This document shows, piece after piece, positions 45,751 through 62,855 of a DNA stretch of 64,000 bases (positions are counted from its first letter, which is position 1; every line of letters begins with the position of its first letter). The stretch covers positions 77,692-141,691 of the forward strand of contig MTMD02000001.1 in the NCBI GenBank assembly GCA_002010065.2, written 5' to 3'. Source of the DNA: Candidatus Pyrohabitans jungbluthii. Lineage in GTDB: Archaea; Hydrothermarchaeota; Hydrothermarchaeia; Hydrothermarchaeales; BMS3B. The position numbers and the translations under genes are program-made. The notes beneath the pieces were generated by a model. The model worked only from the letters and a program-made list of their open reading frames with translations, was not told the DNA's origin and did not search any database.

Positions 45751-47604
45751 TCATCTCCTCGTAATAGATTCCTCCAATTCCTCCCTGGGAAGGCGCATGC
45801 GCTGCTTTAAAGCTTTTGCTATTTTATAAATAAGAAAGGCTGCAACACTCATCGCAATTAAGACCACGAAGAAAAAGATCGCCGGCGATAGACCAAAGAT
45901 CCTCTTTATCAGCTTCGCCTCCACGCTTGTGCTTCGCCCTGAGAAAACCTCAACCTCGGTTTCGTAGGGCATGTAACCAGCCTTCTCCAGCCTCACCCTG
46001 TACCTTCTAGGCGGAAGGTAAAGCTCCGCGTCTGTGGTTGCGACACGCTCACCATCGATATAGACTTCAGCACCTGTAGGGATGGAGCTAACCACAAGAA
46101 GACCCTTTTCCACCTCCTCCCTGTAAACATCAAAAGTAACCTCATCGCTGGCGGTGCTCTTCCCATCACTAACCTCGGCGCGTAGCATGTAGCTCCCAGC
46201 CTCAAAGGATGAGACATCCAGCCTGTAGCTTCCTTCAGCTTCGCTCCCCTGGTAGAGTGTGGTTACTCCCTTAGTGGAAATAAGCTCTATCCTCACAGTG
46301 AGAGGGTCTCCATCAGCATCCTGAGCAACCCACCTCACCTCAACCTCGCCCGAAGCTTTTGCTCCATTAGCTGGTGAGACTATCTCAACCTCGGGGGGAG
46401 TGTTCTTTCTCTCTTCTTCCTCACGTACCTCCTGCTTCTGCGGCTGTTGTGTAACGTCGACACGCCAGCTCACCACCACCTCACTGAAAGGCGCTGAGAC
46501 AATGCACTCCACAACGCCAGAACCAAGCTTCGCTGTATAGGTGAATTCGCTATCCCGCGAAACGTCTATGCCATTGAAACGCCAAAGGTAGCTCACCTTC
46601 AGCTCGTCGGTGTGCTCCGCCTCAACGCCAAAACGAACCTCCTCACCCGGCTTTACTGTGAGCTTCTCAGAGGTTGGATGCCGGGAGAGCACCTTAAGTG
46701 CGCTATCCACATTGCCCAGAAAAATCATTGGTTCAATCTTGTAGTGGCGAAGCACATCTTGGGTGCGCAGCCCCTGAGTGGTGCCGTATGTATAGCCTGG
46801 CTCATACCTCATTAACCTGAGTCTGGTCTCGTAGTAGGCGTACTCCACCCCAACAAGCTCGTCCCTGCCATCGCCGTCAACATCTCCAGCGAGCAAGGCT
46901 GCAAAAGGCTGTGTATATTTTGCCTCCCCTATTTTGTTAAGCTTCTCTGTCAAATCGCGGATGTAGGAGGTGTCGTAAAGAAAGATGGTTAGCCTCGTCT
47001 CATATGGCAAAGCCTGGATGGCGATGAGTTCATCTATACCATCACCGTTAATGTCGCCAGCGAGCCAGTTCTCAAGGGACTCGCGGTACTTGAGCATGTC
47101 CAGCTGGCGCAGCTTCTCTGTTATCCCCCGGGAATACTCAGGATCATAGGTGTAAAGGTAGATCTCTGTCCATGCAACCTTGGGCTGAATAAGGATAAGC
47201 TCATCCACACCATCGCCATTGACGTCGCCGGCTAGCCACCTTCCTGCTTCGCTACCATGGCGTGCAACGTCGAGGCGTAGCAGCTTATTTTCATCCCTGT
47301 CGTAGCGGTATATCTCAAGCTTGGAGCCCTGCGCCTCCCTCACCACCTTTATAAGCTCGTCTATGCTATCTCCGTCAACATCACCTGTGAAAAAGTTCGC
47401 CCAGTATGGCAACTCCACCACTGCCTTCTTCTCTAAACCATAGTTGTTGCCATAGGCATAGCCACTTTTGTACTGGAAAAATGAAAGCTCCATTCCCGTG
47501 GTGGTGTTAACCGCGATTACAACCTCATCCACAGGGTAGGAGGGAAGCGCATGGAGATGCGCGAAGGTGAGCAGTATCGCCAGTGTCACTATGAGCCAGC
47601 GCAT
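45751..47604 (-). CDS. Surface protein with FG-GAP/VCBS-like repeats, Ig-like and PEGA domains
   Basis: A 617-residue cell-surface protein. Signal peptide (WLIVTLAILLTFAHLHALP), five FG-GAP-like repeats with Ca-binding loops (GDVDGDSIDELIK, GDVNGDGVDELIL, GDINGDGIDELIA, GDVDGDGRDELVG), two Ig-like regions (about 320-400 and 410-500), a PEGA domain (GLLVVSSIPTGAEVYIDGER, about 505-575) and a C-terminal anchor (AIFFFVVLIAMSVAAFLIYK). The ATG at 47604 suits a TATA box 25 bases upstream (leaderless). Role probably adhesion or sensing. Confidence 0.82.
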   Translation of the reverse strand: MRWLIVTLAILLTFAHLHALPSYPVDEVVIAVNTTTGMELSFFQYKSGYAYGNNYGLEKKAVVELPYWANFFTGDVDGDSIDELIKVVREAQGSKLEIYRYDRDENKLLRLDVARHGSEAGRWLAGDVNGDGVDELILIQPKVAWTEIYLYTYDPEYSRGITEKLRQLDMLKYRESLENWLAGDINGDGIDELIAIQALPYETRLTIFLYDTSYIRDLTEKLNKIGEAKYTQPFAALLAGDVDGDGRDELVGVEYAYYETRLRLMRYEPGYTYGTTQGLRTQDVLRHYKIEPMIFLGNVDSALKVLSRHPTSEKLTVKPGEEVRFGVEAEHTDELKVSYLWRFNGIDVSRDSEFTYTAKLGSGVVECIVSAPFSEVVVSWRVDVTQQPQKQEVREEEERKNTPPEVEIVSPANGAKASGEVEVRWVAQDADGDPLTVRIELISTKGVTTLYQGSEAEGSYRLDVSSFEAGSYMLRAEVSDGKSTASDEVTFDVYREEVEKGLLVVSSIPTGAEVYIDGERVATTDAELYLPPRRYRVRLEKAGYMPYETEVEVFSGRSTSVEAKLIKRIFGLSPAIFFFVVLIAMSVAAFLIYKIAKALKQRMRLPREELEESITRR

Positions 47605-47626
47605 AATTAAAGTAGAGCCGGACACA

Positions 47627-47668
47627 TATATAAGGTTTGACGGTTTATCTGACGGTTAAACTTAAATA
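47627..47668. promoter_or_regulatory. Divergent TATA boxes: surface protein (minus) and MoxR operon (plus)
   Basis: Minus: TTATATA at 47627-47633, 25 bases from the leaderless ATG. Plus: TTAAATA at 47662-47668, start expected near 47690. Between them GACGGTTTATCTGACGGTTAAA repeats GACGGTT twice at 11-base spacing, a possible regulator site. Confidence 0.5.
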
Positions 47669-47744
47669 TCCCTTTGAACCATTTTGATGACGGTGGTTTT
47701 AGTGCTGCGTCTTGGCACACCTGAGCAAAACTGGAGGTATAGCC

Positions 47745-48560
47745 ATGGTTGAGAGTAAGACACTCAAGGTTGAGGAGTACATAATAACAGAAGAGCCCTA
47801 CTACGAGCCCGTGGGCAATGAGATTGAGATTTTTGAAGCCGCTTACAAGAACAAGCTCCCTGTTATGCTTAAAGGTCCCACCGGCTGCGGTAAGACCCGC
47901 TTCATGCAGTACATGGCATGGAAGCTTAAGCGCCCCCTAATTACCGTATCCTGTCACGACGACCTGACCTCGAGCGACCTGGTGGGACGCTACCTTGTTA
48001 AAGGCGGAGAGACCGAGTGGGTGGACGGCCCGCTTACCCGTGCGGTTAAGGTTGGTGCTATCTGCTACCTCGACGAGATTGTAGAGGCAAGAAAGGACAC
48101 CACCGTTGTGATTCACCCGCTCACCGACGACAGGCGAATTTTACCAATAGAGAAGAGGGGCGAGATAATTAAGGCGCCGGATGAGTTCCTTCTCGCTATC
48201 TCCTACAACCCGGGTTACCAGAGCGTGCTTAAAGATCTGAAGCACTCCACCAGGCAGCGCTTCGTAAGCATAAACTTCGACTACCCGCCCAAGGAGCTGG
48301 AGAAGAAGATAGTCATGAAGGAGAGCGGAGTAGATGAAGAAACTGCTGAGGCGCTGGTAACGCTTGGCGAGAAGATACGCAACCTCAAGGACAAAGGCTT
48401 AGAAGAAGGCGCAGGTACCAGACTGCTCATCTACGCGGGTCAGCTAATAAAGGAAGGCATCGAGCCAGCACAAGCGGCGGAAATAGCGATGGCAAACCCG
48501 ATTACAGACGACGCCGACATGCTCCGCGCTATTAGAGAGCTCATAACCACTGTATTCTAG
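47745..48560 (+). CDS. MoxR-type AAA+ ATPase (CbbQ/NirQ/NorQ group)
   Basis: A 271-residue AAA+ ATPase of the CbbQ/NorQ type that, with a VWA partner, remodels or activates enzymes. Walker A is [12 protein letters not shown] (K50), pore/sensor motifs [20 protein letters not shown], Walker [21 protein letters not shown], and the C-terminal [20 protein letters not shown] with the Arg finger typical of CbbQ. GGAGGT precedes the ATG at 47745. Directly followed by the VWA gene and a thermosome gene. Confidence 0.92.
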
Positions 48561-48570
48561 GGTAGCGAAT

Positions 48571-50934
48571 ATGGCGAGCTTTGAAGACGTACGGAGCAAT
48601 CTGTTCAAGATTCTGGGGCAGACATCCTTTGGCGAGGACGTAATGGATGTGCGCTTCACGGGCTTTCACTATGCCCGTGGGCTGCGCAGCATAGACGAGG
48701 CAGTGCCAGCGCTGATGGAGCTGCCCAACGACGTGCTGAGGGAGATCTACAGGCAAGGGGAGAAGCTGGCGAAGCGCGACAAGGAGATGGCATTCAACTT
48801 CTTCATGACCGCCCCGGACGCGGTGACCCACTTTAGCCTCGAGGACCTCAAAAAGTGGGTGGAGATGGGCTTAGAGCTGGCGGACGCGTACGGCGTCGTA
48901 CCAGCGCGCAACTTCTTCAAGGGTATTACCAGGGAGACCATTGAGAAGATCCACTCCCATGGACTTGAGTTTAAAGATGTGGCAAGGATAATGGAGATAT
49001 ACATCAACGCGCTGAGCGGTGACCAGCTGGCGGTGCAGGAGGACGTCACAAGCTACACAGATACGCGCGTAGTTTACCTGCCCCAGAAGGTGGAAGAATT
49101 TGAGAACAATGAGCTCAACTTTAAGGTTTACAAGGTGATAGCGGCGCATCGCTACGCTCAGAAGCGCTACCGCAGCCTTGAGCCAAATCTGAAGCGCATT
49201 GAGGATGTTGTAAACGAAATTCAGCAGAAGTACGGGCGCAGCATCTCCGACACCCGCGAGGGGCTGGAGAACTTTATATACCTCTTCCCGGAGGAGCAGC
49301 TTGCTTTAGATATTTTCAGCATAGTGGAGAATGCACGGGTGGAGAGAAATCTGCGCAAGGAGTTTAAAGGCATAGCCCGAGACATGGACATGCTTTTAGA
49401 GCGGGAGTGGGAGCGCCGTCCCAGCTTTTCAAAGCTGAGCGATAAGGAGGCGGTGCTGGAAGCGCTGATGCAGCTCCTGACCTACGGGAAGCTTAAAGAG
49501 GGTCTAAACCCCAGCTTAGAGGAGATAGCGCGTAAAGCCTACGAGATAGTAAAGGAGATGCTGGAAAAGGAGCGCCCGACCGTTGAGGACAGCTGCATCG
49601 CCACCTATAAGATTTACGAGCTTATTGAGGAAAAGCTCTTCGGCACACCATACAACCGCTTCAACGACATAGCATTTAGAGGCGTTATTAAGCCAGAGCA
49701 GGTAACCGCAGGCTTGAGAAAGACCAAGAAGGAGATGGCAGAGAAGCTGGAGTCGCTGCTGGAGGATCTGAATATAGAGAAGCCTCCAGATATAGACAGC
49801 ATGATTCAGCATGCAATGAATGAGGTGCCCGATCCCCTCGCCTATGGCGCGCCTCTCGATTTTCTCTTCCGCCTTGGCTTGGAGATCCCCGAGGAGATAC
49901 AGGAGGAGATCCTGCGCGAGATAGAGAAGATACTCGGCGAGCTGGGTGAGATCGACGCCAGCATGCTGATGAAGGTTCTGGACAGCGCTGGCAGGAAGAT
50001 AAGGGCAAACATCCAGGCTAAGGTTACCGAGTTCCAGGTGGAGCTTACTGAGGAGGACAAGCAGGGGGCCTTCCTCTACGACGAGTGGGATTACAAGGTG
50101 GGGAACTACCGCGCTGCGTGGTGTGCCCTGAAGGAGAAAATGATGCACAAGGGCAGCGATAAGTTCGTGGAGAAGACGCTGCAGAAGCACGCAGGCTTGG
50201 TGTCGCTTATAAAGCGTCAGTTTGAGATGATGCGCCCCGACTACAAACGGCTCTTCAAGCAGATGTACGGCGAGGAGATAGACCTGGACGCCTTCGTCGA
50301 AGCTTTTGCTGACATTAAGGCAGGCGTAACACCCAGCGACAAGCTGTACATAAAGATCGACAAGAAGGAGCGCGATATCGCTGTTGCCTTCCTCGTGGAC
50401 TTGAGTGGCTCAACCACCGGCTGGGTTATTGAGACTGAGAAGGAAGCTCTCGTGTTGATGTGCGAGGCGCTTGAAATTCTCGATGACAAGTATGCGATCT
50501 TCGGCTTCTCAGGTAAAACGCGCAAGCAGTGCGACTTTTACATAATAAAGCGCTTCGATGAGCCATACGACGAAGAAGTTAAGCAACGTATCGCCGGCAT
50601 GGATGCCTTTGACTACACGCGAATGGGGCCGCCGATACGCCACGTTACCAAAATACTCGAGGAGACGCCGGCTAAGATCAAGCTGCTTATAGTGCTCAGC
50701 GACGGCAAACCCGAGGACTTCGATGAATACAAGGGGGACCACGGCATAGAGGATACAAAGAAGGCGCTCATCGAAGCAAAGAGGAAGCACATCCGCCCCT
50801 TCTGCATCACCATAGACACCGAGGCGAGGGACTATATACAGCGCATGTTTGGTGAGATTGGCTACATTATTCTCGACGACGTTGCAAAGCTGCCCAGAAA
50901 GCTTCCGGAGATATACAGGAGGCTCACCACCTGA
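48571..50934 (+). CDS. VWA-domain protein, CbbO/NorD-like partner of the MoxR ATPase
   Basis: A 787-residue protein: about 580 helical, charged residues and a C-terminal von Willebrand A domain with an intact metal site (D610-L-S612-G-S614 in FLVDLSGSTTGW; the distal acid in LIVLSDGKPEDFDEYKGDHG). The N-terminal region has SIVENARVERNLRKEFKGIA, similar to NorD/CbbO. It should dock on the MoxR ring and recruit a client. Client unknown; the operon's chaperonin suggests a folding or activation pathway. Confidence 0.88.
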   Translation: MASFEDVRSNLFKILGQTSFGEDVMDVRFTGFHYARGLRSIDEAVPALMELPNDVLREIYRQGEKLAKRDKEMAFNFFMTAPDAVTHFSLEDLKKWVEMGLELADAYGVVPARNFFKGITRETIEKIHSHGLEFKDVARIMEIYINALSGDQLAVQEDVTSYTDTRVVYLPQKVEEFENNELNFKVYKVIAAHRYAQKRYRSLEPNLKRIEDVVNEIQQKYGRSISDTREGLENFIYLFPEEQLALDIFSIVENARVERNLRKEFKGIARDMDMLLEREWERRPSFSKLSDKEAVLEALMQLLTYGKLKEGLNPSLEEIARKAYEIVKEMLEKERPTVEDSCIATYKIYELIEEKLFGTPYNRFNDIAFRGVIKPEQVTAGLRKTKKEMAEKLESLLEDLNIEKPPDIDSMIQHAMNEVPDPLAYGAPLDFLFRLGLEIPEEIQEEILREIEKILGELGEIDASMLMKVLDSAGRKIRANIQAKVTEFQVELTEEDKQGAFLYDEWDYKVGNYRAAWCALKEKMMHKGSDKFVEKTLQKHAGLVSLIKRQFEMMRPDYKRLFKQMYGEEIDLDAFVEAFADIKAGVTPSDKLYIKIDKKERDIAVAFLVDLSGSTTGWVIETEKEALVLMCEALEILDDKYAIFGFSGKTRKQCDFYIIKRFDEPYDEEVKQRIAGMDAFDYTRMGPPIRHVTKILEETPAKIKLLIVLSDGKPEDFDEYKGDHGIEDTKKALIEAKRKHIRPFCITIDTEARDYIQRMFGEIGYIILDDVAKLPRKLPEIYRRLTT

Positions 50935-50942
50935 ATGGGGAG

Positions 50943-52604
50943 GTGATGCCATTGCAGAATAACAACCAGGGGAAACTTGGTCCCCGGGACATCGAAGCTC
51001 TTATTGCCAATGAGCGCTATATTGGTAAGGACGCTGTGCGCGGTAATATCGTCGCTGCCCTCGCTGTGGCTGAGACGCTTAAGACGACGCTCGGTCCTCG
51101 CGGTTTGGACAAAATGCTCATGGTGGAAGGGGGAGAGGTGGCGATTACAGACAGCGGGGGTACAATACTCAAGCTTATAGACCTGGTGCACCCTGCGGCG
51201 AAGATGATGCAGAGTCTGGGTTTAACAATGGGCGAGCGCTACGGTGATGGCGCAACAAGCAGCGTAGTCTTTGCCGGGGAACTTCTGAAGCGGGCTTTGA
51301 ATTTGATGGAACTTGGACTGCATCCCACCACAATAATCAACGGATACCGCATGGCGCTGGAAGAGACGCTTAAGGTGATGCATAAGCTCTCACGGAAGGT
51401 CACCCCCGGAATAATAAAGGATGTAGGGATAACCATATTCAAGGGCAGACTCGGCGAGAGAGATGCCGAGTTTATGGCGCAGGTTGTCGCGTCAGCACTA
51501 GACTTCGCGGGCGGGGAGAAGGATAATGTTTATGTGAACTACCGCCCCGGAGGCAAGCTCCGCGACACCACCCTCTACGAGGGGATCTATATAGACCTGG
51601 GAAAGCGCGTTCATCCAGCAATGCCCAAGAAGGTGGAGCACGCGCGCATCCTGCTAATAGATACAGAGTTCGATGTGCGAAAGGTTGAGAATGCGAAATA
51701 TGAGATTGGCGACCCGCGCAGAATGCGCGAGTTCATGGAGTACAAGCGCAAGGTGCTTCGCGTCGCCGTGGAGATGATAGCTCGCTCCGGTGCAAATGTG
51801 GTGTTCTGCCAGAAGAACATAGCCGACGTGGCGATGTACTACATGGCAATGAAGGGCATCCTGGGCGTGCGCGACGTGGAGAAGAAGGTGATGCACCTTC
51901 TCGAGAGGGCCACAGGTGCGCAGATAGTGAGCCACGTTAAAGAGGTTACGCCAGAAGTGCTGGGCTACGCGGGTTATGTGGAGGAGGATAAAATTGGCTT
52001 AGAGGAGATAATGTATGTGCGCAAGTGCAAGAATCCCGGTGTGGCCTCGATACTCGTTCGCGGGGGGAATGAGAAGTTTGTGCTGGAGTTGAAGCGTCAG
52101 ATTGAAGATTTAATCGACGTATTTGCGGCGCTTCGTGAACATGGCAGGGTTGTGCCTGGTGGCGGTGCTGTAGAGGGTGAAGCCGCGAAGAGGCTGCGCA
52201 GGTTTGCACGCAGCGTCGAAAGTAAGGAGCAGCTCGCCATAGAGGCGTTTGCAGATGCACTTGAGGAGCTTCCTCGCGCGATAGCAGCGAACGCGGGCAT
52301 GGACGCAACGTATGCGGTGCTGAAAATACGCGAGTGGCACCACAGGGGTAAGAAGGGCTATGGCGTCGACGCGATGCGCCGCGGGATGGGCGACGCCTAC
52401 GTTAAGGCTATCCTCGACTCCTACGAGGTGCGCAGGAATGCCCTAAGCTCTGCGGTAGAGGTGACGTGCTCTATTCTGAGAATAGACGACGTGCTCATAA
52501 AGCGCAAAAAGAAGGCTAAGCCAAAGAAGCCCGAACCAGTGGATTCGCCGGTACGCAAGGATGGCAAGATAGACCTGAGGTATGCGTTCAAGGGGTTAAG
52601 GTAG
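50943..52604 (+). CDS. Divergent thermosome (group II chaperonin) subunit
   Basis: A 553-residue chaperonin. Equatorial ATP motifs are largely kept: TTLGPRGLDKMLMVEGGEVA-ITDSGGTILK and GDGATSSVVFAGELLKRALN (GDG with the Asp but A-T-S-S for the usual T-T-T); the late VVPGGGAVEGEAAKRL is present. Departures: the region usually reading G-I-D...G is GKKGYGVDAMRRGMGDAYVK, the C-terminus lacks the Gly-Gly-Met tail and ends in a basic, proline-rich RKKKAKPKKPEP segment. Co-transcribed with MoxR and VWA. It may be a specialised paralogue; no other thermosome gene is visible here. Confidence 0.88.
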   Translation: MMPLQNNNQGKLGPRDIEALIANERYIGKDAVRGNIVAALAVAETLKTTLGPRGLDKMLMVEGGEVAITDSGGTILKLIDLVHPAAKMMQSLGLTMGERYGDGATSSVVFAGELLKRALNLMELGLHPTTIINGYRMALEETLKVMHKLSRKVTPGIIKDVGITIFKGRLGERDAEFMAQVVASALDFAGGEKDNVYVNYRPGGKLRDTTLYEGIYIDLGKRVHPAMPKKVEHARILLIDTEFDVRKVENAKYEIGDPRRMREFMEYKRKVLRVAVEMIARSGANVVFCQKNIADVAMYYMAMKGILGVRDVEKKVMHLLERATGAQIVSHVKEVTPEVLGYAGYVEEDKIGLEEIMYVRKCKNPGVASILVRGGNEKFVLELKRQIEDLIDVFAALREHGRVVPGGGAVEGEAAKRLRRFARSVESKEQLAIEAFADALEELPRAIAANAGMDATYAVLKIREWHHRGKKGYGVDAMRRGMGDAYVKAILDSYEVRRNALSSAVEVTCSILRIDDVLIKRKKKAKPKKPEPVDSPVRKDGKIDLRYAFKGLR

Positions 52605-52651: not shown

Positions 52652-53338
52652 ATGAATGTCCATATTGCTCCAATCGGGACTCAAAGTGACGAGCATATCC
52701 GGAGGGCTGTTCATGGAAAAACGCCAGTGGATAAACTCTACCTAATACCAACGAAAGAGTCTTATGAAAAAGCAATTAAGTTGAAAGAAGACCTTGAAAA
52801 CACGCTTTCTTCTTTGAAAATAGAGATAAAGATGCTTGAAGAACAAGGTAGAAAACGTTTTATCGATCCATTTAATCTCAACGACATCGTTGCAGCAATA
52901 TTACAAATTGCAAACGCGGAGAAAGGAAATAAACTATTTGTAAACATAACTGGCGGAACAAACCTAATGGCAGGAGGTGCAACAACTGCAGCATATCTCA
53001 CGGGTGCAACCATATACTATATTAAGAAACAACAGGAGAATGAAAGACTTGAAGACATTATAATAAAAATCCCCGTTCCAAAAATACCGCTTTACAAATA
53101 CGGAGAAATTAGAGTAAAGATTTTAAAGATTATTGCAGAAAAAGGAGGAAGAATTAACAAAGCAAAAGAACTTGCAAGAGAATTGGACATAGCTCCGCAA
53201 ACGGTAAGCTACCATCTCAAAGAGTTAGAAAAGTCAGGACTCGTAAAAGTGATCATGGATGAAAACAACAGGCGACAGAAGCAATATGAGATAACAGAGA
53301 ACGGCAAATTAATAGCTACATTATTTGAGGTTGATTAG
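52652..53338 (+). CDS. CARF-domain winged-helix protein (HFX_2341/DUF6293-like)
   Basis: A 228-residue protein. The N-terminal 140 residues form a Rossmann-like CARF domain: MNVHIAPIGTQSDEHIRRAV, DKLYLIPTK and the ligand-loop motif FVNITGGTNLMAGGATTAAY (TGGTN at 100-104). The C-terminus (about 150-228) is a winged helix: ARELDIAPQTVSYHLKELEK, then an EITENGKL wing. CARF domains bind cyclic oligonucleotides; with a DNA-binding domain this is a likely transcription regulator of a defence locus (compare Csa3). No CRISPR array or cas gene is present. The A+T-rich codon use differs from neighbours. It converges on a HEPN-motif gene, overlapping by 23 bases. Confidence 0.82.
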   Translation: MNVHIAPIGTQSDEHIRRAVHGKTPVDKLYLIPTKESYEKAIKLKEDLENTLSSLKIEIKMLEEQGRKRFIDPFNLNDIVAAILQIANAEKGNKLFVNITGGTNLMAGGATTAAYLTGATIYYIKKQQENERLEDIIIKIPVPKIPLYKYGEIRVKILKIIAEKGGRINKAKELARELDIAPQTVSYHLKELEKSGLVKVIMDENNRRQKQYEITENGKLIATLFEVD

Positions 53339-54293
53339 TCTGTTCTAACGGGAACTTTGCAAAAATGTTAAGGATACCGAAGGTTAGATCTCGTGCTTTT
53401 TCTACATTTTCCTTGTGCATTGAGTCAGAGATATTCGCACATGTCCTATGTTCATATTTATTTCGTAAAGCTTGTATAACAATTAATTTTTCTGTAAGAC
53501 ATTTTAATTCATCATATGATAATGAATGGCCGATGTAATTCAAAAATTCTTCCATTATATCATTGTATATAATAATCATACAAAAAATTGGTATTAAATT
53601 TTTTATTTCACATGTTCCTTTATAGCAAACATCAAATTCTTTAATTTCTGGATCGGTGATTACATCCATTTTTTGTCTACTGCTTTTGAGATAATCTATA
53701 ATTTTATTTTCAATCTTATTTCGTTCTAGCTCTTTACAAATTTTATCTAATTTTTGTAAATATTTCATATTGTTATCTGATATAATTTTTTGAATTATAG
53801 TTTTGTCTTTAACTAAATAATTTGGATATTTATTTTTAGTATTATAATCAAAATCTTTTTCTTTTTCAAAAATTTTGTCTTCATATTTACAATCGAATAT
53901 TATGTTTTTAATTTCACTATTATTTAAAAATGAATTGAGTATAATTCTTAAATTATTTATTAATGAATCAGAATCTCCTAACACCTGATCATAATATCCA
54001 TATTTTATGATATCTCTGGCTTTGATAAAGTCGATATCAGATTCTTTGACTTTAATTTCTAAATCTTTAAGTTTTGATTTTATATACTGATATTCCGGAA
54101 TAATTTTCAAATTTTTAGATAATTTATTTTCTATTTCCCTTTCATAGGTTTTATCAGACGCTTGATTTAGTATTTTTCTAATTTGCCGCCGAATTTCGAC
54201 CATAGATACCCCAGATAAAAATGCAACTAAAATTCTCCAATTTTGTTTTAGAATTTTTTGAATATCTTCTATATCTACTTTTTTTAATTCCAT
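53316..54293 (-). CDS. AT-rich unknown protein with C-terminal HEPN-type R-x4-H motif
   Basis: A 325-residue mostly helical, Lys/Asn/Ile-rich protein whose base composition is far below the neighbours' GC content, suggesting recent transfer. Near the C-terminus, IVIQALRNKYEHRTCAN carries R277-N-K-Y-E-H282, the R-x4-6-H signature of HEPN RNases with the usual polar residue after Arg, flanked by long helices (EEFLNYIGHSLSYDELKCLT before, VEKARDLTFGILNIFAKF after) as in HEPN folds. The first 220 residues are unrecognised. ATTTAAAT about 30 bases upstream suggests a nearly leaderless promoter. A toxin/effector RNase role is inferred from motif and partner only. Confidence 0.65.
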   Translation of the reverse strand: MELKKVDIEDIQKILKQNWRILVAFLSGVSMVEIRRQIRKILNQASDKTYEREIENKLSKNLKIIPEYQYIKSKLKDLEIKVKESDIDFIKARDIIKYGYYDQVLGDSDSLINNLRIILNSFLNNSEIKNIIFDCKYEDKIFEKEKDFDYNTKNKYPNYLVKDKTIIQKIISDNNMKYLQKLDKICKELERNKIENKIIDYLKSSRQKMDVITDPEIKEFDVCYKGTCEIKNLIPIFCMIIIYNDIMEEFLNYIGHSLSYDELKCLTEKLIVIQALRNKYEHRTCANISDSMHKENVEKARDLTFGILNIFAKFPLEQTNQPQIM

Positions 54294-54901: not shown

Positions 54902-55246
54902 TTAAAACAACGGCGGCGAATGCGTCGCGAGGAGAATTAATTCCTCGCTACCAGTGTTTTCAATCCCATGCTCCTCCCCCGGCGGAACAAAGATATAGTC
55001 ACCTTCCCTTATGCCAACCCACTCCCCATTCACATAAGCTTTTCCCATACCCTTTAAAATGTAGATGGAGTCCACCTCCTTTTCATGGAGGTGCACGCTG
55101 GCGGAGCTTCCAGGGGATATTTTCAGTACAGAAACGCTCACCTCAGAGTTTTTCTCGCTCGTTATGAGCTTCGCAATCTCTACTCCAGCGAACTTGGGGT
55201 GAGGCTCAAACCTAATATCAGCGCTTTTTATTAAAATGCTGCCCAT
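54902..55246 (-). CDS. Single-domain cupin protein
   Basis: A 114-residue beta-barrel protein with a metal-type cupin pattern: ASVHLHEKEVDSIYILKGMG (H-x-H-x4-E-like) and YIFVPPGEEHGIENTGSEEL (G-D-Y...P-x-G-E-x-H). It is last in the molybdoenzyme operon. The ATG has GGAGTGA upstream; a GTG two codons earlier overlaps the TorD stop. Substrate unknown. Confidence 0.85.
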   Translation of the reverse strand: MGSILIKSADIRFEPHPKFAGVEIAKLITSEKNSEVSVSVLKISPGSSASVHLHEKEVDSIYILKGMGKAYVNGEWVGIREGDYIFVPPGEEHGIENTGSEELILLATHSPPLF

Positions 55247-55248
55247 GC

Positions 55249-56322
55249 TCACTCCGCCCTGAGGAAGTAGGTGCTCTCCCCGGAGGTGTCTATTTTATTC
55301 ACAGAGGCAAACTCGGCACCAAGCTCCTCTCCGCTCAGATTGCTCGCCGCGTTCAGCATCTCCTCCACTTGCTTATACTCGTGCTCAAGGAAAAGCTTGG
55401 CTATCTTCGCCATAGCTCTGTAAAAGTCCATCTCCACTATCTCTTCGCTCTTGTATTTCTCAACGTCGCGCACGTCGCCATGATACTTGAGCGCTATGCC
55501 CACCTTGAACTCGTCGGTGGCTACATCGTCGAAGAGGTAGGGCAGCCAGAGAATCATATGCTCATGGATGAACTTCTTCTGGCGCTCCAAAGCGAGGAGT
55601 GCCTTTTCCCTGTCGCCAGCTTTCCACGCTTCTATCTCATCCTCCAGCAGGCGGAAGGCAAACTCAAGCTCAAGTTTGGCTTCGTCCGGCGGGAGGTTTC
55701 CGCGTGATTTATCAAGAATATAACCTGCCTCACGGTACAGGTTCTTAACCTCAGCCGTCAAATCGCCCATTATCTGCTTCTCGCTTCTATACACAGACTC
55801 GTGCCCCGAGATGTATGGCATGAGGTCGTCGTCGAAAATTGTAAACCGCTCCGCCTCAAGCTCACGCCGGAACTTCTTTGGCTTCATGTCAGCGAAGGCG
55901 TTACGGAATCGCTCAAGCGCCTGGAAGTGCTCCTCAAGCAGGTTCTCAGGGATAATCTTACCTAGAGCGGAGCGGAGCTTTTCCATGTACTCCCCGCTCA
56001 GAATCTCCTCTGCCAGAGCAGGAGAAATCTCTGTAAAAGCGCGGAAAATCTGGAAGTATGCGTCTCGCCTGGCAACGGCGAGCTCAACATAACTCTTCGC
56101 ATCGTGAGGCGTCGCAGGAGTGCGCTGAATGTTGGGCTTCCTATTCTCTACTAAAGCGATCCAGTGGTCTTTATCTTTAATATTCATGGAGTGAATCCAG
56201 AACAGATAGTTATACTTCTTGAGCAGATTCTTCCAGTCCTTTGCCAATTCGGGATCAAAGTACCACTTTACGTAATCGTTCCTCTCAAATATATCCTTGG
56301 GCTCTCTCGGCAAGGTTAACAC
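55249..56322 (-). CDS. TorD/DmsD-family molybdoenzyme chaperone
   Basis: A 357-residue helical protein. The chaperone core is the C-terminal half: HESVYRSEKQIMGDLTAEVK, PPDEAKLELEFAFRLLEDEI and LALERQKKFIHEHMILWLPY are the conserved acidic/His patches that hold the immature catalytic subunit. The N-terminal 150 residues are extra compared with the usual 200-residue TorD. It should help insert the Mo cofactor into the catalytic subunit four genes upstream in the operon. Confidence 0.85.
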   Translation of the reverse strand: MLTLPREPKDIFERNDYVKWYFDPELAKDWKNLLKKYNYLFWIHSMNIKDKDHWIALVENRKPNIQRTPATPHDAKSYVELAVARRDAYFQIFRAFTEISPALAEEILSGEYMEKLRSALGKIIPENLLEEHFQALERFRNAFADMKPKKFRRELEAERFTIFDDDLMPYISGHESVYRSEKQIMGDLTAEVKNLYREAGYILDKSRGNLPPDEAKLELEFAFRLLEDEIEAWKAGDREKALLALERQKKFIHEHMILWLPYLFDDVATDEFKVGIALKYHGDVRDVEKYKSEEIVEMDFYRAMAKIAKLFLEHEYKQVEEMLNAASNLSGEELGAEFASVNKIDTSGESTYFLRAE

Positions 56323-56367: not shown

Positions 56368-57204
56368 TCAGTGCCTCTCCTCTGGCGCAGGGAATGGGAA
56401 GTCATCTCCGGGTAAAGCATAGTATACAGAGCCCACACGTATAATACGCCTGTTCTCTGCCTTCTTTTCAATGACCTTCTTCACATCCTTGTAGTACCCG
56501 AAGGTCATGGCTTCGGTGGAGCACTTGGTTGCACAGGCACTCCACAAACCCTCGTAGGTAATGCTCTCAACCCCACGACCAACCTCTGCAAGCTTCTTCC
56601 CAGATAGGGGTTCGCCCTTCTCATCGACGAGCCTGCCCTTGTTGTCCCGCTTTATGTTGCCAACCTCATCCGCCACTGGCAGGCGTACCTCTCCGCCATG
56701 CTTGTATGTATAGCGGTAGATCTTCTGAAGCTCTTCTTTAGTGTAAGTCCTGCGATAGTCCACACGCTGCATGCAGAAGTTGCACTTTACCACTCTGCCA
56801 GTGCGGGAATCGTACTGGGGGGCGCCATAGGGGCAGGCTTGCATGCAGCGCTTGCAGCCTATGCAAGCCTCGCTGTCCACAAAGACAATGCCATCCTTGG
56901 CGCGCTTCTGCATTGCTCCGGTCGGGCATGCCTCGACACAGGGCGCGGGGTTGCAGTGGTAGCACAGCATGGGGATATAGAGGGTCTTAACCCTGCCGAG
57001 TACCTTCCTTGGTCCAACCTGGATAACGCGTATAAGACGGGGACCCATGCTCAGGTCATGTTCAAGTTTGCATGAAGTTTCACAGGAAAAGCAGCCTATA
57101 CAGCGCTTTAAATCGATAAGCATAACAACAGTATTATCACTCGGCTCACGCTGGTCAACCTCGTACATGCTAAAAGCTTCGTCAAAAACCTCTACGCTGA
57201 CCAT
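56368..57204 (-). CDS. 4Fe-4S ferredoxin-type electron-transfer subunit (DmsB/PsrB-like), copy 2
   Basis: A 278-residue iron-sulfur protein with four clusters: CIGCFSCETSCKLEHD, CYHCNPAPCVEACPTGAMQK, CIGCKRCMQACPYGAPQYDS and CNFC paired with the late CATKCSTEA. An insert of about 50 residues (YTYKHGGEVRLPVADEVGNI) lies before the last Cys pair, absent from copy 1. No signal peptide. Its ATG overlaps the stop of the 90-residue tail-like protein by one base. Confidence 0.92.
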   Translation of the reverse strand: MVSVEVFDEAFSMYEVDQREPSDNTVVMLIDLKRCIGCFSCETSCKLEHDLSMGPRLIRVIQVGPRKVLGRVKTLYIPMLCYHCNPAPCVEACPTGAMQKRAKDGIVFVDSEACIGCKRCMQACPYGAPQYDSRTGRVVKCNFCMQRVDYRRTYTKEELQKIYRYTYKHGGEVRLPVADEVGNIKRDNKGRLVDEKGEPLSGKKLAEVGRGVESITYEGLWSACATKCSTEAMTFGYYKDVKKVIEKKAENRRIIRVGSVYYALPGDDFPFPAPEERH

Positions 57205-57525: not shown

Positions 57526-57543
57526 GTAGGGGAAAGCCCCTAC
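57526..57543 (-). terminator. Hairpin and T-rich run between ferredoxin copy 1 and the tail-like gene
   Basis: On the minus strand GTAGGGG-CTTT-CCCCTAC includes the ferredoxin stop codon and is followed by CCTTTTGTTTTTG. This may be a partial terminator that lowers expression of the downstream tail protein, ferredoxin 2, TorD and cupin. Confidence 0.5.
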
Positions 57544-58325
57544 TTCTGCTGCTTCAGGAACACCGGCTTTGTCACTTCGGTTACGCGCTCAGGCAGCTTG
57601 CCCGGCTTGAGGCGTATCCTGGGTATGAAAAGCGCGCGCTCCGGGAAGGAGTACGCCGGCGAGGTGAGCAGATCGGTGTCTGCCTTGTCGTTGAAGAACA
57701 CTCTCGCGAGGCGGATCGCGTCCTTCTCGCGGAAGTAGGTCATTATGTCGGCGGGGTTGCCGATGTACAGGCAGTGAGTGGAGCACTTGGTCACACAGGC
57801 TGGCTGCAGACCCTTGTCGATGCGGTGCATGCAGTAGTCGCACTTTATTACCTTGCCGGTGCGGGAATCCCACTGGGGCGCACCGAATGGGCAAGCCTGC
57901 ATGCAGCGCTTGCAACCTATGCACTTCTCGCTGTCTACGAAGACAATACCGTCCTTGGCGCGCTTTGTCATTGCTCCAGTCGGGCACGCCTCAACGCACG
58001 CTGCGTGGCCGCACATGAAGCAGTTCATGGGTATGTACATTGCCTTGGTGTGGCGACCCACCTTCTTGGGCCCCACCTGGATGACGCGCATCCTGCGCGG
58101 ACCCATGGGGTCGTCATGCTCCAGCTTGCACGCGGTCTCGCAGGCGAAGCAGCCTATGCAGCGCTTGAGGTCAACAAACATGGTAATGTGGTCTGGGGGG
58201 ATACCCCAGACGCGGGCAGCCTGAACCTCGTAGAGACCAATCTTCTCGTTCCTCTGCAGACCTTGTCGAGCGGTCTCCTGATCAAGGTTGAGAAGGGGAC
58301 CCTTGTCTGAGAATACCTCATCCAT
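57540..58325 (-). CDS. 4Fe-4S ferredoxin-type electron-transfer subunit (DmsB/PsrB-like), copy 1
   Basis: A 261-residue protein carrying four 4Fe-4S motifs: CIGCFACETACKLEHDDPMG, CFMCGHAACVEACPTGAMTK, CIGCKRCMQACPFGAPQWDS and CDYC with CVTKCSTHC. It passes electrons to or from the Mo subunit encoded 10 bases upstream. The ATG at 58325 follows GAGGTGATTAAG. There is no Tat or membrane signal. Confidence 0.94.
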   Translation of the reverse strand: MDEVFSDKGPLLNLDQETARQGLQRNEKIGLYEVQAARVWGIPPDHITMFVDLKRCIGCFACETACKLEHDDPMGPRRMRVIQVGPKKVGRHTKAMYIPMNCFMCGHAACVEACPTGAMTKRAKDGIVFVDSEKCIGCKRCMQACPFGAPQWDSRTGKVIKCDYCMHRIDKGLQPACVTKCSTHCLYIGNPADIMTYFREKDAIRLARVFFNDKADTDLLTSPAYSFPERALFIPRIRLKPGKLPERVTEVTKPVFLKQQK

Positions 58326-58335
58326 CTTAATCACC

Positions 58336-60831
58336 TCACTTGGTCTCCCACTTCTCACGCGGCACGCCTACATAGTAAATGCCGCTGCCCTTCTGGATGA
58401 ACCTGGTGTAGGTACCCAGGTTGACAGTGGGCTCCTTCTCTGGGTCGAGGTAGTCCTTGGGTGTGCGCTTGACCTTGGCAAGGAACTCCTTGGTCTTCTC
58501 CACAGCCTTGTCAGGATCGTCGCCCAGGCGGTACACTCTGACGAGGTTGCACTTGTATTGAGCCTGGGTGTAGAATGGATCCTTCACAGTGTCGTCCACG
58601 AGTTCATTAATGTTGCTGTACGGATAGAAGGGCTGATACTTGTCGAAGCCTTCTGGACCCCAGACCTCGCCCTCGTCAACCATCTCGTTGACCCAGGCGG
58701 GGCCGATCACCTTGCCGTAGTCGTTCTCGCACACCACAGTGTCACCGTCGCGTATTCCGAGGGCCTTCGCAAGCTCGGTGTGGATGTTTATGAACCTGTG
58801 AGGCTCAAGCTCAACCATCCACGGCCACCAGTGACCCATCTCGTGGAAGTGCGCCACAAGGCGGCCGGTGCAGAGGATGAGCGGGTACTTTTCCCACAGG
58901 TCAGGCCTTGCAACTGGAGCATTGCTGGGCTCGATGTGTATGGGCAGTGGATACCAGCCGATCTGCTCCAGAGCCTGAGAGTATATCTCCACCTTGCCGC
59001 TCGGTGTTGGGAAGCGCTTGTCTGTGCCTGGGTAGTTCACACCCTCCTTGTACATTATCCACTGAGCACCGCGTATCGTCGCCTCGGGGTCGGAGTACAT
59101 CATGGCCTCGTCCTTGGTCTCGGCAGGCCACATCACACCGCCCTTCGGGGACATCTCGGGATCCATGAGCTCTACGGTTATACCGGCAACAAAGCTCTCC
59201 TGGGAGTGGAACCAGTTCTGGCACACGCGCTCGTCGATCTCGTGGGTGGTGCCCGGATACTTGGGATCCTCAGGCAAGGGGTTGCCGAACACGTCCTTCT
59301 TCGCCCACCAACTCTTGCCATCAGGAGCATAATACGCCTCGGCGAACTCGAAGCGCTTGGCTAAGCCCGCCCAGAAGTCTATATCGGCGCGGCACTCCCA
59401 CTGGCGCTCTATAATCTGGTTGTGCCACTGCACGTGGCGGTTGTTGCCGTGGTGGACAACGCCTTCATGCTCGAAGAAGCTGGTTATCGGGAACGCGGCG
59501 TGCATCCAGCTCATGGTCTCGTTGGGATGGAAGCTCAGGTGTACACCGCAGTACAGGTTCTTCATGTACTCGCGAACCTTGTTGTTGTTTGGCCACTGCA
59601 CTATGTGGTTTCCATTCCAGATGAGACCCTTAACAGGGTAGGGCTTGCCGGTGTAGCCGGGGTTAATTGTGCACGCGCTTGAGGTGTCGCCCCACGGGAT
59701 TATCTTGTCAGCAAGCTGGGGCTCCTTTATCTTCGCAACGTACTCCTTCAGGTCCTTACCAGCGCTGAGCACTGGGCGGCAGTTGTGGAGCCAGTTCCAG
59801 CCTCCTCCCTTAACGCCCACGTTACCGGTTATTGCGACGAGTATCTGGTAGGCGGCATTGCCATTACCAGCGTTGTACTGCTGCGCAGTACCTAAGCAAC
59901 CAGTGAAGTGGGTCCTCCTCGGGTAGGCGATCCACTCAGCGGCTTTGCGTATGTCCTCAGCCGGCACCCAGGTGATGTTCTCAGCCTTCTCAGGTGTATA
60001 GTCCTTCACGAGCTCGGCGTACTTCTCAAATCCCACGGTCCAGCGCTCAATGAAGTCCTTGTCAATTCCATCAATCTCGTATATGAGCACGTGGGCGAGC
60101 GCATTCGCCAGGTAAGCATCAGTGGTCGGGCGCAGGCGTAGCGCCAGGTCAGCCTTAGCCATGGTGGCGTTAAAGCGCGGGTCTATGACTATCATCTTGG
60201 CGCCGTTGCGATCCTGGGCCTCGATGAACCACTTCATGGTTATTACTTCCAGCGCCGCAGCGTTGGCACCGGAGATGAATATGGTGTCGCTGTTCATGGC
60301 ATCCTGACAGGGGTTCATCAGGCGCAGGAACTCCTTGGCGCCGAATACATACTGACCCCTCGCCCCAGGTGACTCACAGCAAAGTGGACCCTGACCGTAG
60401 ATGTTCGGGGTACCGTACATGGCAAGGAATCTTGAGCCACCAAGCTTGTTACCGTAGCTGCTCCTTCCTGTGCGGTGGCACGCTACGGTGTGGGCACCCC
60501 ACTTCTCACGGATGTACTTCAGGCGGTCTGCGACGAAGTCGAGAGCTTCGTCCCAGGTGACGCGCCTGAACTTGCCGTTTACGTTGTCCTCTCTAATAAC
60601 AGGATACTTGGCGCGCAGGGGGTTATATGCATGCTGGTAGTTAGCCGTTCCCTTCGGGCAAAGAGAGCCGTAGTTCTGTGGATGCTCGTCGTCACCCCAG
60701 ATGTCGACTATTCTGCCATCCTTGAGGTACACCTTCATCCCGCAACCGCTTTCGCACATGTTGTCGCAGGTGGTGTACCTGATGGTATCGTAGTCCTTTA
60801 CGGACTCCGACACTCTCCTCAATACTACCAC
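58336..60831 (-). CDS. Molybdopterin oxidoreductase catalytic subunit, DMSO-reductase family
   Basis: An 831-residue enzyme with an N-terminal 4Fe-4S motif C22-x3-C26-x3-C30-x27-C58 and all MGD-binding regions, ending in the molybdopterin-binding fold (HRFINIHTELAKALGIRDGD). The region normally supplying the metal ligand reads GQGPLCCESPGARGQYVFG, with two adjacent Cys (151, 152), suggesting a Cys ligand as in polysulfide/thiosulfate-type enzymes. There is no Tat signal, so it appears cytoplasmic. GGAGGTGA precedes the GTG start. The substrate cannot be decided; sulfur compounds are favoured by other genes in the window. Confidence 0.88.
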   Translation of the reverse strand: MVVLRRVSESVKDYDTIRYTTCDNMCESGCGMKVYLKDGRIVDIWGDDEHPQNYGSLCPKGTANYQHAYNPLRAKYPVIREDNVNGKFRRVTWDEALDFVADRLKYIREKWGAHTVACHRTGRSSYGNKLGGSRFLAMYGTPNIYGQGPLCCESPGARGQYVFGAKEFLRLMNPCQDAMNSDTIFISGANAAALEVITMKWFIEAQDRNGAKMIVIDPRFNATMAKADLALRLRPTTDAYLANALAHVLIYEIDGIDKDFIERWTVGFEKYAELVKDYTPEKAENITWVPAEDIRKAAEWIAYPRRTHFTGCLGTAQQYNAGNGNAAYQILVAITGNVGVKGGGWNWLHNCRPVLSAGKDLKEYVAKIKEPQLADKIIPWGDTSSACTINPGYTGKPYPVKGLIWNGNHIVQWPNNNKVREYMKNLYCGVHLSFHPNETMSWMHAAFPITSFFEHEGVVHHGNNRHVQWHNQIIERQWECRADIDFWAGLAKRFEFAEAYYAPDGKSWWAKKDVFGNPLPEDPKYPGTTHEIDERVCQNWFHSQESFVAGITVELMDPEMSPKGGVMWPAETKDEAMMYSDPEATIRGAQWIMYKEGVNYPGTDKRFPTPSGKVEIYSQALEQIGWYPLPIHIEPSNAPVARPDLWEKYPLILCTGRLVAHFHEMGHWWPWMVELEPHRFINIHTELAKALGIRDGDTVVCENDYGKVIGPAWVNEMVDEGEVWGPEGFDKYQPFYPYSNINELVDDTVKDPFYTQAQYKCNLVRVYRLGDDPDKAVEKTKEFLAKVKRTPKDYLDPEKEPTVNLGTYTRFIQKGSGIYYVGVPREKWETK

Positions 60832-60940: not shown

Positions 60941-60966
60941 CTTTTTTATCCGGGGCGAAATTGAGC

Positions 60967-61593
60967 ATGAAAATGCACAACCGTAATGAAAAAATGCGAT
61001 GCACCGCGGTTATACTCGCCGGCGGGCAAAGCAGGAGGATGGGAAGAGACAAGAGGTTTTTAACACTTGAGGGGGAAAGCTTTATTGAACGCATGCTCAG
61101 GCTCGCATCAGGCTTTGCCCGGGAGGTTATCATATCCCTTGCCACTGAGGAGCAGACATCGCAGATAAGCGCTGTGGGTAATTTCAAGGTGGTGCTGGAC
61201 GAAAACCCTGGAGAAGGCCCTGCTTATGCGCTAATTTCAGCCGCCAGGCATGCGAGTTATGAGTACCTTGCTGTCATGCCAGTAGATTCCCCTCTGCTTG
61301 AACCCGAGGTATACCGCCTCCTTATGCGAGAGGTTAAAGGTTACGATGCTGCTGTGCCCGTGGTGAATCGCATGCCCGAGCCTCTGCATGCCGTCTACTC
61401 GAGGCAAGGCCTCCTCGCACGCGCCTCAGAGGCAGAGCCTGGAAGTATGCATGCACTTCTAAGCCTGCTCAATGTTAACTTTGTGGAGGAAGAGAAGCTC
61501 CGCATCGCTGACCCTGAGATGCTGAGCTTTCTTAACATAAATACGCCTGAGGACTACAAAAAGCTCAGAGAAAGGGTGGAAACATGCAAGTGA
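60967..61593 (+). CDS. mobA: Molybdenum cofactor guanylyltransferase
   Basis: Attaches GMP to molybdopterin to make the MGD cofactor used by the adjacent enzyme. The 208 residues have the nucleotidyltransferase loop AVILAGGQSRRMGRDKRFL, NPGEGPAYALISAARH, and MPVDSPLLEPEV. Start: ATG at 60967 fits a leaderless message; a TTG at 60961 and later ATGs are possible. It overlaps moeA by 10 bases. Confidence 0.93.
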   Translation: MKMHNRNEKMRCTAVILAGGQSRRMGRDKRFLTLEGESFIERMLRLASGFAREVIISLATEEQTSQISAVGNFKVVLDENPGEGPAYALISAARHASYEYLAVMPVDSPLLEPEVYRLLMREVKGYDAAVPVVNRMPEPLHAVYSRQGLLARASEAEPGSMHALLSLLNVNFVEEEKLRIADPEMLSFLNINTPEDYKKLRERVETCK

Positions 61594-62855
61594 GAGGTAA
61601 GGGTTTTTACCGCCTTACCCCCGTAGGTGAGGCGCTGGAGAAGCTGCTTTCAGGGATTCGCGTAATGGGAGAGGAGGAGGTTCTTCTCGAGGAAGCGCTT
61701 GGTAGAGTGCTCGCTCGTGATGTTGTAGCGGAGAGGGACAATCCACCCTTCGACCGCGCTGCAATGGATGGCTTTGCGGTGCGGGGGGAGAACACCTTCG
61801 GCGCAGGTCAGGCAAACCCTATATATTTTAGAATTATAGGAGAGGTACTCACAGGGCAGAGCTTTAACGGCGAGGTAAGTGACTTCGAGGCGGTGCGGAT
61901 AACCACCGGCGCACCTTTACCCCGAGGTGCAGACGCTGTAGTGATGCTGGAGCATGTGAATGAACTTGGCGGCGAGATTGAAGTAATTAAAGCGGTACCC
62001 CCTGGCAAAAACGTCTCACTGCGTGGAGAAGATTATAAAAAGGGTGAGGTACTCTTGAAGCGCGGGCGAGTGCTAAACCCTCAGGAAATCGCGATTCTCG
62101 CCTCGCTGGGAATGCGCAGGGTTAAGGTTTTTCGCAAGCCGAGGGTGGGGATAATCTCAACTGGCGACGAAATTAAAGAGCCTGGTGAAGAGTTGAAAGA
62201 AGGGCAGGTTTATGATACCAACAGCTTTGCTCTGGCTGCGCTTTGCAGGGCAACTGGCGCAGAGGCAAGCCGCCTGGGAGTTGTGAAGGATGAGTATGAG
62301 GCAATGAAGCATGCGGTAGAAGCCGGGTTAGGCTACGACGTCCTGCTGATAAGCGGCGCAACCTCCGTTGGTAAGCGTGACGTGGTGCCTGAGATAGTGC
62401 GCGAACTTGGTGAAGTTGTGGTGCACGGCGTGGCCATGCGCCCCGGCGAACCTACAGGCTTTGGTTACGTAGGCGATACCCTGGTATTCATGCTTCCCGG
62501 CTACCCGGTGGCTAGCATAGTTGCCTTTGAAACCTTTGTGCGCCCAGCGCTTCAGGTGATGCAGGGGCTTTCGCCTGCGATACCCTACCCCGCGATAAAA
62601 GCAAGGCTGCGCAGGAAGATACCCTCCGAGCTGGGCAGGCGGGATTTTGTTCGTGTTAAGGTGGAGCACACACCGCGAGGTTATGAGGCTGAGCCAGTGC
62701 GTACCTCGGGCTCTGGGATAGTCTCAAGCCTGGTGCGTGCAGATGGCTTTGTTATTGTGCCAGAAAACACCGAAGGTATAGAGAAGGGCGAGATCGTTGA
62801 AGTGAGGCTTTTCAGAGGCTTGAGTGAGCAGAAAAACAATCTTGCCGCAACCTGA
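61584..62855 (+). CDS. moeA: Molybdopterin molybdenumtransferase
   Basis: Inserts molybdate into adenylylated molybdopterin. The 423 residues include NPPFDRAAMDGFAVRGENTF, RITTGAPLPRGADAVVMLEH, PRVGIISTGDEIKEPGEELK and the MoeA ending domain IV region VHGVAMRPGEPTGFGYVGDT and LPGYPVASIVAFETFVRPAL. Standard length. mobA-moeA divergent from a MGD enzyme makes a self-contained unit. Confidence 0.95.
   Translation: MQVRGKGFYRLTPVGEALEKLLSGIRVMGEEEVLLEEALGRVLARDVVAERDNPPFDRAAMDGFAVRGENTFGAGQANPIYFRIIGEVLTGQSFNGEVSDFEAVRITTGAPLPRGADAVVMLEHVNELGGEIEVIKAVPPGKNVSLRGEDYKKGEVLLKRGRVLNPQEIAILASLGMRRVKVFRKPRVGIISTGDEIKEPGEELKEGQVYDTNSFALAALCRATGAEASRLGVVKDEYEAMKHAVEAGLGYDVLLISGATSVGKRDVVPEIVRELGEVVVHGVAMRPGEPTGFGYVGDTLVFMLPGYPVASIVAFETFVRPALQVMQGLSPAIPYPAIKARLRRKIPSELGRRDFVRVKVEHTPRGYEAEPVRTSGSGIVSSLVRADGFVIVPENTEGIEKGEIVEVRLFRGLSEQKNNLAAT

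Follow-up and report, generated by a model that had tools for sequence, protein, structure and literature searches.

A divergent group II chaperonin encoded with a NorQ/NorD-like MoxR-VWA pair in Hydrothermarchaeota, with a molybdoenzyme as possible client

Within the window (the whole stretch of 64,000 nt that was analysed), three consecutive open reading frames on the plus strand encode a MoxR ATPase, a VWA protein and a group II chaperonin, separated by 10 bases (MoxR/VWA) and 8 bases (VWA/chaperonin). The first-pass annotation had described this region as a CbbQ/NorQ-type ATPase, a CbbO/NorD-like VWA protein and a group II chaperonin in succession, with gaps of 8-10 bases, and the reading frames, domains and gaps all agreed with that description. 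The chaperonin, here named Cpn-V, starts with either a GTG codon at 50943 or an ATG codon at 50946. The triad and its candidate promoter are arranged as follows:

47662..47669, + strand: TATA-like box TTAAATAT, candidate promoter, read in the sequence
47745..48560, + strand: MoxR AAA+ ATPase of the CbbQ/NorQ type (P0001), 271 aa
48571..50934, + strand: NorD/CbbO-type VWA protein (P0002), 787 aa
50943..52604, + strand: divergent group II chaperonin Cpn-V (P0003), 553 aa

The TATA-like box is located ~80 bases upstream of the MoxR gene and is retained in genomes G009 and G007, and a single promoter for the whole triad is plausible, with this box as the candidate. Just 5′ of the box lies a direct repeat, TGACGGTT-TATC-TGACGGTT (47638-47657), which is partly retained in the same two genomes and may possibly function as an operator. 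An operator common to the triad and the molybdoenzyme cluster described below was rejected, as the repeat occurs once in the window and is at best weakly unusual. Directly 3′ of the triad, a Csa3-like CARF/HTH regulator is encoded (52652-53338, TIGR01884 above cut-off), adjoining an unknown gene (53316-54293), and this place is occupied by other genes in G009. The gene divergent from MoxR encodes an FG-GAP/PEGA-repeat protein (45751-47625) in the genus of the window, and a conserved protein of ~230 aa with a weak UPF0147 match in G010, G013, G015 and G019 (L104 10075-10767, L114 11016-11711, L110 3-491 and L117 3745-4395).

The MoxR protein matched both AAA_5 (PF07728) and CbbQ_C (PF08406), aligned end to end with solved CbbQ/NorQ proteins (E 1e-100 to 1e-107), and has intact Walker A (GPTGCGKT), Walker B (CYLDEI) and sensor 1 motifs, and is hence a member of the NorQ/CbbQ group. 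The VWA protein has the features of a NorD/CbbO partner, with a C-terminal VWA domain, an intact MIDAS (DLSGS...T...D) and a gene paired with that of MoxR. Its residues 493-785 aligned with solved NorD (E 7e-49). The structure predicted for it has a mean pLDDT of 71, with lower confidence in the linker and finger regions, and its best structural match was the NorD of NorQD complexes. The N-terminal ~490 aa gave no sequence match to NorD, with the fold match also confined to the C-terminal 300 residues, and the protein lacked the NorD-related N-terminal domain and, at the inspected loci, the nor gene cluster, both of which define NorD proper. The pair resembles NorQ/NorD and CbbQ/CbbO in the MoxR subfamily over its full length, the VWA domain, the finger region, the C-terminal end and the tight gene pairing, but differs in this N-terminal half, in having a chaperonin as third gene, and in not being located beside nor or cbb genes, with RuBisCO in G013 as the one exception. 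A second VWA protein, shorter than this one (~616 aa; L164 7147-8976, L165 6498-8351, L170-L171), 44% identical in its C-terminal part, has a conserved neighbourhood of its own with no MoxR adjoining.

Cpn-V scored 460 bits against PF00118 and passed the thermosome_alpha/beta models, with a score below the curated cut-off of TIGR02339 (490 vs 671 bits). Its alignment with thermosomes covers the full length, and the predicted model is that of a plain group II chaperonin with the built-in lid region, which together identify it as a group II chaperonin. It is not the sole copy, as the same genome encodes three other, ordinary chaperonins with 626-662 bits against PF00118, and the second, normal thermosome for which the first-pass annotation had proposed to look is thus present in triplicate. 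The phylogenetic placement that it had likewise proposed gave a separate clade: in a maximum-likelihood tree of Cpn-V with 46 ordinary thermosomes from the phylum Hydrothermarchaeota and others (a quick, unrooted tree with long branches), Cpn-V formed one side of a branch with an SH-aLRT of 100 and a length of ~1.0, outside the ordinary thermosomes. Full or near-full members are encoded in 13 genomes (G000, G001, G003, G004, G007, G008, G009, G010, G015, G019, G020, G021 and G022), with a fragment in G005, and the closest genomes with a name are MAGs of Candidatus Hydrothermarchaeota, which are deep-sea archaea not yet in culture, with a chaperonin up to 98% identical. A profile built from 12 members gave scores of 833-948 bits for members and 599 for the highest-scoring non-member among 394 archaeal genomes, with at most three candidates scored per genome, and no Cpn-V was found by this search in the 371 genomes outside the phylum. 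A scan for close relatives in GTDB species genomes also gave no Cpn-V outside the phylum, with the one non-phylum hit being a 26% partial match.

The chaperonin had initially been noted to depart from normal in its nucleotide loop and tail, and these alterations were consistent across the Cpn-V members. The Asp of the NDG motif, which we take to be the equivalent of GroEL D52, was lost in 13/13 Cpn-V and kept in 25/26 ordinary thermosomes in the corresponding alignment columns, with replacement by Ser (10/13, including Ser71 of the window copy), Asn (2/13) or Arg (1/13). The GDG Asp was kept in all 13 (Asp102 in the window), and the third catalytic Asp, presumably equivalent to Mm-Cpn D386 and GroEL D398, was lost in five (G001, G010, G015, G021 and G022) and kept in the window copy (Asp389). 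The complete set of catalytic Asp residues of ordinary thermosomes (NDG, GDG and D386 equivalent) is therefore lacking in Cpn-V. All 13 members also share a one-residue insertion, resulting in IDLGKRVHP, and lack three residues ahead of the nucleotide-sensing region. In most members the GGM tail, which is missing from the window copy, is replaced by a linker and a GKIDL-like motif. The dN/dS values between relatives (0.02-0.11) indicate strong purifying selection, which rules out a pseudogene and shows that the gene is maintained. In Mm-Cpn, the D386A mutant binds ATP without hydrolysing it (PMC5019054). Judged by these residues, Cpn-V is predicted to retain ATP-binding features next to a damaged hydrolysis site and is probably an ATPase-impaired chaperonin, with the loss of one Asp perhaps slowing hydrolysis rather than abolishing it; such a combination would fit a role in holding or assembly.

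The same gene order was found in other genomes with gaps of 1-13 bases, which rules out the linkage being an accident of one contig. The three genes stay together in relatives, as the full triad is adjacent in eight genomes of two families, seven of them in one family (G000, G009, G007, G008, G003, G004 and G001) and one in another (G015, with a VWA protein of 60% identity). The chaperonin gene is located away from MoxR-VWA in G010, G019 and G020, and in the latter two the MoxR and VWA genes are also apart from each other, with the separated genes of G020 sitting among housekeeping genes. Near Cpn-V in G020, the ribonucleotide reductase contains an intein with a LAGLIDADG domain (L108 13128-16493). 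The unlinked Cpn-V and MoxR-VWA genes still share presence and absence: in the 23 genomes examined, Cpn-V and the VWA protein occur together in 14 (with the VWA call in G022 being a weak partial match), eight have neither, one (G013, 57% complete) has the MoxR-VWA pair only, and none has Cpn-V only (Fisher p 2e-5, which is too small as the genomes are related). Among the genomes that are ≥88% complete, which are likewise related, 12 have both and four have neither, with no exception. Outside the phylum, MoxR-VWA pairs are present in some other archaea, such as family f36, and no chaperonin adjoined these pairs at the loci inspected.

It is likely that MoxR, VWA and Cpn-V genes make up a single functional unit, with the housekeeping neighbours of the separated G020 genes and the MoxR-VWA pairs of other archaea that lack Cpn-V counting against it. 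The alternative that survives best is a general role for Cpn-V, for instance in mixed rings or during stress, as a thermosome subunit that evolves rapidly, with the operon reflecting co-regulation and not a joint machine. This would agree with the plain group II fold predicted for Cpn-V, with the unlinked triad genes in several families, and with the capacity of both chaperonins and MoxR-VWA proteins to act as general chaperones, but we regard it as unlikely, given that presence and absence are shared even between unlinked genes, that Cpn-V was never seen without a MoxR-VWA pair in the 23 genomes, that it occupies a separate deep clade, and that an otherwise invariant catalytic Asp is lost in every member. 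The suggestion of the first-pass annotation that the chaperonin is a dedicated partner for a client handled by the MoxR-VWA pair was thus upheld in part: the dedicated partnership follows from the three coexisting ordinary thermosomes, the separate clade, the presence and absence shared when unlinked, and the altered nucleotide site and tail, while joint physical action on one client, left unnamed in that annotation, is conjectural.

A candidate client is encoded in the region between 2.3 and 10 kb past the operon, where the following genes are located:

54902..55252, - strand: small cupin protein (weak cupin matches), at the 3′ end of the molybdoenzyme cluster
55249..56322, - strand: NarJ/TorD-type molybdoenzyme chaperone (PF02613), putative client cluster
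56368..57204, - strand: DmsB-like Fe-S subunit, putative client cluster
57540..58358, - strand: DmsB-like Fe-S subunit, putative client cluster
58336..60831, - strand: DMSO-reductase-family molybdopterin oxidoreductase (MoE), proposed client
60961..61593, + strand: MobA-like nucleotidyltransferase (molybdenum cofactor)
61584..62855, + strand: MoeA molybdenum insertase

The MoE subunit is encoded 5.7 kb downstream of the operon. The same cluster is also located ~5-14 kb from the MoxR-VWA pair of G010, where its orientation relative to the pair differs. In this genome the Cpn-V gene, which is not linked to the pair, abuts genes for a molybdate transporter (convergent), MoaA, an Fe-S protein, a MoCF_biosynth protein and MoaC. 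The Moa set (MoaA/MoaC/MoCF_biosynth) is likewise present in G001 and G015 on the contigs with the triad, and two f36 genomes have a MobA homologue directly before MoxR-VWA. These gene neighbours, seen in four arrangements, point to a molybdoenzyme client or a cofactor step. MoE was present in 13/15 pair-bearing genomes versus 2/8 others (p 0.006, rising to 0.02 when the G019 fragment is left out, in genomes that are related), with an identity of 77-100% among bearers and 69% for the fragment, and gave no match at E 1e-100 in the genome sample from outside the phylum. The association is incomplete, with the unit but no close MoE in G004 and G022, and MoE but no unit in G002 (96% complete) and G006 (82% complete), and the molybdoenzyme already has a NarJ-type chaperone, which argues against it being the client of the Cpn-V unit. 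The gene neighbours and co-occurrence together suggest a DMSO-reductase-family molybdoenzyme as tentative client, at a little under even odds.

Two other clients were considered. A unit inserting non-heme iron into nitric oxide reductase or another heme-copper enzyme, in the manner of NorQD, would be consistent with NorQ and NorD being the closest solved relatives of both motor proteins, and with the nor genes reported in some Hydrothermarchaeota MAGs (PMC6759336), but is distinctly improbable, since no nor gene adjoined any inspected copy of the unit and the gene neighbours suggest molybdenum instead. Service to RuBisCO by a CbbQO-type activase and a folding chaperonin is very unlikely despite the CbbQ/NorQ family of the MoxR, a form III-like RuBisCO on the MoxR-VWA contig of G013 (L117 4378-5442) and a RuBisCO ~3.4 kb from a VWA gene in G302, as RuBisCO in G013 is set apart from MoxR by a gene of divergent orientation, RuBisCO presence does not follow that of the unit (12/15 vs 6/8, p=1), and RuBisCO is missing from G001 and G021, both near-complete and bearing the unit, a presence profile which rules it out as universal client.

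Our overall reading, with a rough probability of 0.45, is that of a dedicated chaperonin with a degenerate ATPase acting with a NorQD/CbbQO-type motor, with a molybdoenzyme as the most likely client. By analogy with work on NorQD (PMC13036017), the MoxR hexamer would turn the VWA domain, and the VWA protein would grip the folded client and open it for the insertion of a cofactor or metal, with client specificity proposed to be seated in the N-terminal part that lacks a NorD match. Cpn-V would be a paralogue dedicated to the MoxR-VWA unit, most likely holding or assembling the apo-client, either as a chamber that cycles slowly or not at all or as a specialised subunit that joins ordinary thermosome subunits in mixed rings, both proposals being drawn from sequence alone. 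The client would most likely be a DMSO-reductase-family molybdo- or tungsto-enzyme, chiefly the MoE of the window, or else the unit may act on the cofactor-loading step. It is doubtful that the MoxR-VWA motor works directly on a client within a catalytically degenerate chaperonin ring devoted to molybdoenzymes; such a machine would couple a chaperonin and a MoxR motor in a way without earlier description.

A precedent for MoxR and VWA proteins in molybdoenzyme maturation is given by CoxD and CoxE of CO dehydrogenase (PMC4240915), where the Mo of the already folded enzyme receives sulphur and copper. The unit described here shares with CoxD/CoxE the MoxR-VWA pair and, as proposed, a molybdoenzyme client, but has a different MoxR subfamily and client family, and the CoxD/CoxE system has no chaperonin. 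Similarly, Cpn-V has the full-length homology and fold of the archaeal thermosome, but differs from it by its separate clade, the loss of the NDG Asp, the altered tail and the three coexisting ordinary copies. The eukaryotic MKKS/BBS10/BBS12 chaperonin-like proteins are also group II paralogues with degraded hydrolysis sites and a dedicated role (PMC2846930); the likeness to Cpn-V is one of working only, as Cpn-V is archaeal, apparently of independent origin, and encoded in an operon with MoxR-VWA.

The MoxR-VWA motor and the chaperonin fold are already known kinds, and a chaperonin that is degenerate and dedicated to a MoxR-VWA pair seems to be undescribed in the literature searched. A search of titles and abstracts gave no chaperonin described as MoxR-VWA partner, no paper in this literature combined thermosome, MoxR and von Willebrand, and a review from 2023 on how molybdoenzymes mature mentions neither MoxR nor chaperonins. 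If our reading is correct, Cpn-V would to our knowledge be the first prokaryotic group II chaperonin paralogue to give up part of its ATPase for one assembly pathway, a change paralleled in eukaryotes by the BBS chaperonin-like proteins, and client delivery to MoxR-VWA motors would become testable with three genes. Two further thermosomes of G013 (L200 = G013:C26 and L201 = G013:C76), 34% identical to Cpn-V and on very long branches, are another divergent chaperonin kind.
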